Assembly: GCA_949948735.1 (NCBI GenBank)
Contig: CATLGV010000005.1
Location: forward strand, 1 to 64,000
DNA length: 64,000 nt
Reading direction: 5' to 3'
DNA from: an uncultured Lachnospiraceae bacterium
Lineage (GTDB): Bacteria; Bacillota; Clostridia; Lachnospirales; Lachnospiraceae
Part shown: one piece after another, positions 4,997 to 44,440 of the stretch
Position numbering within the stretch: the stretch's first letter is position 1
Layout of the letters: every line of letters begins with the position of its first letter
Position numbers and translations under genes: made by a program
The notes under the pieces: model-generated
Databases searched by the model: none
What the model was told of the DNA's origin: nothing
Seen by the model: only the letters and a program-made list of their open reading frames with translations

Positions 4997-5748
4997 ATGA
5001 CATACGAACCGGCATCACCGGAAAATCTGCAGGATATATACAATGTAGTGCAGCAGACCATCAAAACCGTCTATCCCGGATATTATCCTGCGGCGGTGGT
5101 GGATTTTTTCTGCGGGCTGCACAATGCAGACGCCATACGAAAGGATATTGAGAGCGGCTTTGTGGGTGTTTTGCGGGCGGACGGCCAAATCGTGGCGACC
5201 GGCTGCTTTCGGGGCAATCACATTACAAGAGTATACCCTCAATTGACAAGGGCATACACGGTCAGGTCAGAATAAATTTTGCGTCCTGCGTCGTTACCCT
5301 CGCTTCGCGTACGCCCTGTACGCGGCGCTCAAGTGCCTCGCAGGGCACAAAATTTATCTCTGCCTGACTCTTCGACCTCAAGCGGAGAGAATTTCGATAT
5401 TTTCAAGGCAGACGATAGAGGCGTACTGGACGTACGCCGATTGAGGATAACGAAGAAAATATCGAAATTCTCCTGCTTTGAGGCGTGTATGCTCTTGTCA
5501 ATTGAGGGTATGTACTGCCCGATTATCAAAAGCGGGGCCTTGGGACATTGATTATCAAAAATATTGAAGAACAAATCGGCAGGGCGTATGATACAATATA
5601 TCTGGATGCTTCGCTGCCGGCGGCGGCGCTCTATGAGAAGCTGGGGTTTCGCACGGTTAGGCATGAGCGGTATCCGGTGGAAAACGGGGCGGTTCTTGTG
5701 TATGAGGTTATGGAGAAAAAGATACGCAGGATTTCCATAGAGAAATGA
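4997..5748 (+). pseudogene. GNAT acetyltransferase interrupted by a 273-bp mobile element
   Basis: The N-terminal part (4997-5235) ends in ATGCFRGNHITRVY, and the C-terminal part (5509-5748) continues with YVLPDYQKRGLGTLIIKN and SLPAAALYEKLGFRTV. Deleting the element plus one of the two flanking TA dinucleotides joins the halves in frame and gives a 158-codon GNAT with an intact acetyl-CoA loop (QKRGLGTL). As present the gene is split, and translation of the first half runs into the element and stops at 5273-5275. This is a recent and possibly reversible inactivation. Confidence 0.92.
5236..5508. mobile_element. 273-bp TA-flanked MITE-like element, copy 1
   Basis: Ends are near-perfect inverted repeats of about 25 bp beginning CCCTCAATTGACAAGG, flanked on both sides by TA (5234-5235, 5509-5510). 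Inside are two long hairpins, 5261-5368 and 5376-5483, each capped by a GCGTAC / GTACGC stem with a five-base loop. Together with the terminal stem this forms a Y. There is no credible coding sequence. TA duplications and short inverted repeats are typical of non-autonomous relatives of IS630/Tc1-mariner elements; that affiliation is inferred, since no transposase is in the window. Confidence 0.9.
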
Positions 5749-5769
5749 GTGATGAAAGGGAGGGTTCAA

Positions 5770-43524: not shown

Positions 43525-44127
43525 ATGAAAAAAGTATTTGCGACAAAACTCAATGCGGCAACGATCGTCCTGATACCGGTGTGCATCGGCATCAATTATC
43601 TCGGAAAACTGATTGCTTCGTTATTAAAGCTGCCGCTGTGGCTGGATTCTATCGGGACCTGCATCGGCGCGGTGCTGGGTGGTCCTGTTATCGGCGGCCT
43701 TTGCGGTGCGGCAAACAATCTGATTTACGGCTTTACGACAGGGGACAGCATTACGCTGGTCTATGCGCTTACCAGCCTGGGTATCGGCGTTGCGGTCGGC
43801 ATTATGGCAAGATGCGACTTTATGAAGAGCTTTGTGAAAGCCATTCTCTCGGCATGCGTGGCAGGCTTGACGGCAGTTGTTATATCAACGCCGTTAAATA
43901 TTATTTTCTGGGGCGGAACGACCGGGAATGTATGGGGAGACGCGGTTTTTGCGGCAACGCAGGCGGCGAAGCTGCCGGTTGCGCTGGGATCGTTTTTGGA
44001 TGAGGTTGTAGTGGACGTACCGGATAAGCTGCTCACGCTGATTATCGTATTCCTGATTATCAAGGCGCTTCCGAAGAAGCTGACTTCCCTGTATGAGGCT
44101 GGGACAGAGGTTGAGAAGCTCGATTAA
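43525..44127 (+). CDS. ECF transporter S component
   Basis: A 200-residue membrane protein with about six helices: WLDSIGTCIGAVLGGPVIGGLCGAANNLIYGF is typical of ECF substrate-binding subunits. The ligand is unknown; neighbours point to a nucleoside or nucleobase-like compound. It is 21 bases after the phosphorylase. A 273-bp transposon lies between it and the T component. Confidence 0.88.
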   Translation: MKKVFATKLNAATIVLIPVCIGINYLGKLIASLLKLPLWLDSIGTCIGAVLGGPVIGGLCGAANNLIYGFTTGDSITLVYALTSLGIGVAVGIMARCDFMKSFVKAILSACVAGLTAVVISTPLNIIFWGGTTGNVWGDAVFAATQAAKLPVALGSFLDEVVVDVPDKLLTLIIVFLIIKALPKKLTSLYEAGTEVEKLD

Positions 44128-44136
44128 GGGATTGTA

Positions 44137-44409
44137 CCTTTGATTGACAAAGGCGTGCACGGTCAGGTCAGAATAAATTTTGCATCCTGCATCGTTACTC
44201 TCGCTTCGCGTACGCCCTGTACGCGGCACTCAAGTGCCTTGCAGGATACAAAATTTTTTTCTGCCTGACTCTGTGACCTCAAGCGGAGAAAATTTTGGTA
44301 TTTTCAAGGCGGACGATTGAGGCGTACTGGGCGTACGCCGATTGAGGACAACGAAGAAAATACCGAAATTATTCCGCTTTGAGGCGTGTATGCCCTTGTC
44401 AATCGAAGG
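44137..44409. mobile_element. 273-bp TA-flanked MITE-like element, copy 2
   Basis: Same length and plan as copy 1, flanked by TA at 44135-44136 and 44410-44411. Ungapped hand comparison gives 31 differences in 273. Ends read CCTTTGATTGACAAAGG and, inverted, CCTTCGATTGACAAGG. Both internal hairpins are kept, partly by paired changes (for example 44184/44247 and 44298/44363). It lies inside the ECF operon without breaking a gene. Confidence 0.9.
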
Positions 44410-44440
44410 TAAAGATTATGAAGAGAGCATGGTTATAAGA

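Follow-up and report, generated by a model that had tools for sequence, protein, structure and literature searches.

A Y-shaped repeat of Lachnospiraceae, probably a mobile element of MITE type, with covarying stems and a tandem-G.A hairpin tip

Two copies of a 273-base sequence lie within a 64,000-nucleotide stretch of DNA from an uncultured Lachnospiraceae bacterium (hereafter the window, meaning the whole stretch that was analysed), and both can be drawn as a Y, which raises the question of what the element is and of whether its pairing is kept in DNA or in a transcript. A first-pass annotation had aligned the copies at 5236-5508 and 44137-44409 without gaps and with 31 differences, and a recount reproduced the lengths, the gap-free alignment, and the number of differences. 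The terminal stem with two hairpins that it had drawn was recovered by folding for both window copies, and the five pairs that it had listed as compensated on both sides all hold (CG/TA, AT/GC, GC/AT, GC/AT, and AT/GC). Paired positions, which make up 198 of the 273 in the fold, carry 23 of the 31 differences. Random placement of the same substitutions yields 1.12 double Watson-Crick changes on average, against the five observed, and at least five arose in 0.2% of 20,000 such trials. Counting against compensation, a one-sided change starts from or leads to a standard or wobble pair in nine cases, leaves the bases unpaired in one, and in one further case both sides change and pairing is lost. 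Folded as DNA, copy 1 reaches −87.8 kcal/mol, with shuffles at −35.6 (sd 3.6), and the RNA fold of copy 2 has a z score of −12.95. The features of the two loci are as follows, in window coordinates.

5236..5508, + strand: Y-shaped element, copy 1, hairpin A first (DNA search, fold, and alignment)
5236..5260, + strand: left arm of the terminal stem, starting CCCTCAATTGACAA (helix 1 of alignment A1; coordinates from alignment columns)
5484..5508, + strand: right arm of the terminal stem, ending TTGTCAATTGAGGG (helix 1 of alignment A1)
5293..5338, + strand: tip of hairpin A, TC strand on + (pattern match; covariance-model match at 5283-5348)
5406..5451, − strand: tip of hairpin B, TC strand on −, 113 bases from tip A (pattern and covariance-model matches)
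5234..5235, no strand: TA target duplication, left of copy 1 (restored frame; uninterrupted relatives)
5509..5510, no strand: TA target duplication, right of copy 1 (restored frame; uninterrupted relatives)
4997..5748, + strand: GNAT-type acetyltransferase gene split by copy 1, left part 4997-5233 (joined frame; end read by eye)
44137..44409, + strand: Y-shaped element, copy 2 (DNA search and alignment)
44135..44136, no strand: TA left of copy 2 (sequence)
44410..44411, no strand: TA right of copy 2 (sequence)
44194..44239, + strand: tip of hairpin A, copy 2 (pattern match)
44307..44352, − strand: tip of hairpin B, copy 2 (pattern match)

Removing copy 1 together with one TA restores an open acetyltransferase frame that reads HITRVYVLPDYQKRG. 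This motif is uninterrupted at the site of copy 1, with at most two substitutions, in all 14 of the relatives that were fetched, the search for acetyltransferase relatives having given a match in 21 of 60 genomes, the source genome included. Because the frame is restored and the relatives are uninterrupted, we conclude that the insertion of copy 1 duplicated TA. The intact relative L246 matches Pfam GNAT families, and the left part of the split gene alone (79 aa) has no Pfam match.

The Y-shaped element accordingly has dispersed copies, complementary ends, and a TA duplication with disruption of a gene, and the properties by which MITEs are recognised are found in it. It is short (273 bases) and non-coding, the ORFs of at least 80 aa that overlap copy 1 (4997-5275 +, 5279-5551 +, and 5329-5769 −) all running across an element end; its terminal inverted repeats form helix 1, which has 26 pairs including TA and 96.0% of cells paired across 53 copies; its target site duplication is TA; and a DNA search of the source genome recovered, besides many fragments, seven near-full copies (at least 267 of 273 bases, 85–100% identical) on five contigs. 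The reading that we favour, to which we assign a probability of about 0.6, is that of a MITE-type mobile DNA element, non-autonomous and non-coding, that is moved in trans by a transposase.

Within the source genome, the near-full copies L001, L002, and L005 on the one hand and L003, L004, L006, and L007 on the other have two types of hairpin A tip and one type of hairpin B tip, combinations that look as if hairpins were swapped between copies. Palindromes of joined ends, some 45–70 bases long, occur in the source genome (C4:97530, C14:159, C27:33551, C29:6456, and others), G297, G714, and G336 (L303 and L304), and have the appearance of elements that lost the hairpin interior by deletion, or of movers without a tip. 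At L081 338-383 an element is interrupted by a sequence read by eye as IS3-type orfA-like. The window element had no match in the plasmid and phage collections; the elements of L206, L029, L262, L217, and L230 had none among the plasmids, nor that of L262 among the phages, and viral contigs searched with two exact patterns gave no match. The L228 query matched one Paenibacillus plasmid, with 77.9% identity over 58% of the query.

Whether the pairing has been kept over a longer history was examined in many copies. A scan for the tip pattern in one genome per species gave at least 117 stretches, and the hosts among the matches listed were Lachnospiraceae or loosely placed entries (Clostridia, Eubacteriales, Firmicutes, or plain bacterium). 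The two tips stand at near-fixed spacing: across the matches listed and other loci, duplicates included, it was 113 bases in 83 of 96 tip pairs, 112 in 10, 114 in 2, and 115 in 1. Alignment A1 comprised the 53 elements with both ends among 63 distinct two-tip elements, the 10 in which both ends were not recognised being omitted. The stems stay complementary while their sequences turn over: compensated double changes occurred at 68 of the 96 predicted pairs, 95.2% of cells pair, and the covariation score was 0.472, against 0.160 in shuffles that ignore relatedness and at most 0.096 with slid partners, which retain it. The first-pass annotation had proposed that pairing is under selection, at the DNA or the RNA stage, and had named random substitution in the arms of many copies as what would speak against it; the 68 compensated pairs support the proposal. 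Since the element sequences are related, none of these counts is independent.

Arm-to-arm copying could produce part of the stem covariation without selection, and this is the core of a rival account in which the element is an ordinary MITE, its terminal inverted repeats alone matter, and its arms match through copying during replication (quasi-palindrome correction). The account gains from the little strand preference seen among stem mismatches and from the many transversions among double changes; the transition/transversion ratio itself is hard to read owing to mosaics between subfamilies, and we do not lean on it. Thirty-three comparisons between copies at least 95% alike gave 91 single stem changes, no compensated double, and one other double; at 65–70% identity compensated doubles made up 76% of single plus double stem changes. 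The absence of compensated doubles in close copies counts against arm copying, although slow copying would also give few. Selection on source copies followed by decay after insertion would give such a pattern, and slow arm copying may do so too.

The hairpin tips bear on this rival more directly. Hairpins A and B both end in a related 46-base tip, the two being inverted to each other, and the GA strand of the tip forms a helix with two tandem G.A/A.G motifs at 7/37, 8/36 and 11/33, 12/32. At pairs 4/40 and 5/39, which the search pattern left free, 127 distinct tips have tandem G.A in 62 cases, Watson-Crick pairs in 56, and something else in 9, and pairs 3/41 and 13/31 covary. Alignment A2 and covariance model R1 used 43 of 51 representative tips; double changes occurred at 18 of the 21 pairs in these 43, and the score was 0.512, as compared with 0.153 after shuffling and no more than 0.129 with slid partners. 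The mismatches 7/37, 8/36, 11/33, and 12/32 were all retained in 40 of 54 aligned matches to the model, which was itself built from tips found by a pattern fixing the mismatch letters. Most tips were recovered with a pattern in which both constant motifs are fixed, so that the constancy of these motifs is partly built in, and the mean pairwise identity of tips (0.85–0.86, against 0.55–0.61 for hairpin stems, in 47 of the 53 elements) is inflated in the same way. Copies from the plain DNA search of the source genome show a narrower gap, with 0.087 differences per site in the tip versus 0.129 in the hairpin stem. Copying between arms should erase the tip mismatches; because the mismatches are kept and 4/40 and 5/39 switch together between tandem G.A and Watson-Crick pairs, arm copying does not explain the tips, and we regard the ordinary MITE as an unlikely description of the whole element.

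As a separate observation, three 209-base copies in G336 (L299, L300, and L301) carry about 51 extra bases inside the tip; the insert is hairpin-like by eye, and the copies differ in it by what look like paired changes.

Pairing kept in RNA should leave more G.U wobbles than A.C mismatches. Stem mismatches in the 53 elements comprised 180 G.T and 168 A.C (terminal stem 43/46, hairpin A 90/55, hairpin B 47/67), and consensus sequences of the seven clusters with at least three members, smaller clusters being omitted, had 18 G.T and 16 A.C. As a yardstick, the acceptor stems of 30 tRNAs from the same loci, in the best-pairing register, had 6 G.T and 0 A.C in 210 cells. Because G.T roughly equals A.C in the stems, we take the pairing to be kept in DNA rather than in one RNA strand. 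Between the DNA and RNA stages, both of which had been put forward earlier, the stem data thus lean to DNA, with the qualification that some symmetric mismatches come from decayed copies and that the lean of hairpin A is opposite to that of hairpin B, an asymmetry by hairpin that also counts somewhat against the MITE-type reading. Tip mismatches, read on the GA strand, comprised 29 G.T and 11 A.C; this excess would suit one folded strand, whether RNA or DNA, is the sole result that points to one, and counts against the reading that we favour.

A structured RNA, in which selection acts on a transcript, as a regulator or through mRNA stability or termination, and the DNA copies serve as genes for it, would draw on that excess, on the strength of the fold, and on the position of copy 2 between two probably co-transcribed transporter genes, an ECF transporter S component (43525-44127) on one side and a CbiQ-type component on the other (Pfam). 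Against it stand the stems without a clear wobble preference and the tips on opposite strands in Y elements, which mean that no transcript holds both in the same form. The orientation of the 24 G336 copies to neighbouring genes (18 versus 22, with ORFs called simply) also looks random. Nor did Rfam offer a match: it returned none above gathering in the 64-kb window, a best E of 0.22, far below gathering, in the element region searched with E up to 5, and nothing but a tRNA elsewhere in L151 among five further loci. We hold a structured RNA to be distinctly improbable.

The inverted hairpin pair also resembles the layout of a REP dimer as portrayed in part of one account (PMC3733652), and it is shared with REP/BIME and CGTC-tagged REPs, so that an element of REP/REPIN kind, recognised as a single-stranded hairpin by a tyrosine transposase, has to be weighed. 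The same account gives REPs as units of 20–40 bases with GTAG or CGTC tags (PMC3733652), in contrast to the long arms, terminal repeats, and target duplications seen here. In the 43 tips of alignment A2, GTAG was absent from the hairpin foot. Insertion of the IS200/IS605 type is not known to yield long terminal repeats and a TA duplication, and this last rival appears very improbable indeed.

The tip covariance model was run on 348 genomes of the family, of which 54 gave a match, and on 398 of the phylum, of which 29 did (E ≤ 1e-4, the source genome being counted in both), and at an E of 1e-10 or better the phylum search gave 14 genomes in eight families other than Lachnospiraceae. The weakest matches, among them L223-L227, L230, L232, and L233, may be distant or due to chance. 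At five loci (L223, L225, L226, L227, and L230) the hairpins are shorter, share an outer part, and end in a tip that resembles no more than the apex; they are perhaps a separate repeat family.

In this wider family the tip sits in the middle of the hairpin in one-hairpin elements with unrelated ends (CTAGTACTCTG, TAGTGTAGTGGCACG, GGAACTGTC, CTAGTATGGCTCACG, CTAGTACACCG, and others) and differing target duplications. Alignment A3, fitted to the model and made of 44 chosen loci including phylum-wide ones, had a tip score of 0.654 versus 0.174 shuffled, with double changes at 17 pairs against 14.5 shuffled, 17 being attained by 7 of 500 shuffles. Y-shaped folds outside Lachnospiraceae were found at L218 and L221, the former sharing the junction letters ACTCTTCGACC. 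Copies of the GGATCTGTC type have a direct TTA/TTA or TAA/TAA duplication in 10 of 13 cases. Among full copies in G336, the left flank is CTA in all 23 read and the right flank is TAG in 23 of 24; the remaining copy has CTAT on both sides and suggests, as a single case, a 4-base duplication. These loci (L279-L298 and L305-L308) include 23 copies of one length, at most four differences from the commonest and nearly all at CTAG, a sign of a recent burst, and their near identity implies that the mover was active recently.

The distance from tip to end is more constant than the end sequences. An inverted-end scan of 45 loci recognised ends in 36, with TA at both ends in 21 of these. Among the 21 one-tip matches with TA at both ends, the tip lies 56–57 bases from the left end in 15 and from the right end in 14, and the six that depart on the left count against the MITE-type reading. 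Across all 36 loci with ends, the corresponding figures were 23 and 22, nine of the 36 being GGATCTGTC-type copies whose arms, minus the 3-base duplication, are one base shorter. Departures (left/right) include L219 (51/54), L264 (51/65), L270 (45/47), L272 (41/43), and L038 (71/56), and at L210, L270, and L273 an inner TA may have been misread as the ends. In the 53 Y elements the left end lies 56–58 bases from tip A, and the right end 57–59 bases from tip B. The element at L261 carries a second, weaker tip; L262, considered as an element tipped at both ends, proved to be two separate one-hairpin copies. That arm length is mostly conserved across unrelated ends is a further point against an ordinary MITE, and its conservation where sequence changes can mean either that a distance is measured or that indels in the hairpin are simply not tolerated. 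A bolder form of the first meaning, which we put forward as rather doubtful, is that the class is defined by its tip: an enzyme or host factor would recognise the folded tip, with its tandem G.A pairs on one strand, the ends would be set by distance, 56–57 bases along the helix, end sequences would be free as long as the arms are complementary, and the Y would be two units fused head to head, each end being measured from the nearest tip.

Movement in trans calls for a partner. No autonomous, transposase-bearing partner with these ends was seen among the matches listed in the source genome, G297, G714, and G336, and the source genome (84% complete) gave 0 matches to the IS630 transposase (DDE_3), both of which weigh against the MITE-type reading. 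Since the four assemblies are in contigs, an autonomous partner could be missing from them. Inverted end pairs more than 300 bases apart were limited, among the matches listed in the source genome, to C27 (605 bases) and C18 (1.4 kb), and end pairs in the fetched loci are 25–74, 150–224, or 250–299 bases apart, except for three of 1.5 (L198), 2.2, and 3.3 kb. The C18 locus (L198 1376-2854) has, by eye, an N-acetylmuramoyl-L-alanine amidase-like ORF between two end remnants.

For a MITE-type element moved in trans, we propose that a transposase would provide the movement and that folded DNA, as a cruciform or a single-stranded hairpin, would be the acting form, as the near equality of G.T and A.C in the stems suggests. 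The tip with tandem G.A pairs is a putative protein site that may be needed for mobility or copying, and different transposon families, perhaps IS5-like ones, may have supplied the differing ends, with tip and arm length retained. Duplications of 2, 3, and 4 bases at the target would presumably suit different groups of the IS5 family.

Several known repeats resemble the element in part. RUP, Correia/NEMIS, and ERIC are, in the sections of PMC2229807 that treat them, likewise short, non-coding, dispersed stem-loop elements with terminal inverted repeats, and RUP targets TA and is linked to IS630-Spn1; they differ from the present element in its tandem-G.A tip common to unrelated ends, its three-way-junction form, and its largely fixed tip-to-end distance, and RUP also in that no partner IS was found here among the matches listed in four genomes. 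The bcr1-type repeats of the Bacillus cereus group, set beside it by description only, are about 150 bases long, MITE-like, of conserved secondary structure, and from Firmicutes according to the relevant passages (PMC2267715, PMC3446304, PMC6542083), but their mobility is tied there to TTTAT repeats (PMC6542083). The Caulobacter CIR has a two-armed fold exposing a conserved motif, although in the passage that describes it (PMC2229807) a linker joins the arms, an end-to-end stem is not mentioned, and the host is an alpha-proteobacterium. Pneumococcal BOX and RUP, compared by description, fold tightly with terminal repeats paired together in the parts of PMC3049150 concerned, a text in which the words "compensatory" and "covar" are absent; a review of prokaryotic MITEs (PMC10969869) likewise lacked the terms looked for. 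A literature search, with most subscription papers outside its scope, gave no description of a tip common to MITEs with unrelated ends. By description, the closest known elements are TA-targeting MITEs and the bcr repeats of B. cereus.

The usual classification of MITEs goes by their ends and by the transposon of origin. Here it is the interior that is conserved, in eight families besides Lachnospiraceae, and not the ends. Two questions thereby become testable, namely what binds the tandem-G.A hairpin and whether a fold sets the ends of a mobile element, and the covariance model gives annotators a means of finding repeats that are absent from Rfam.
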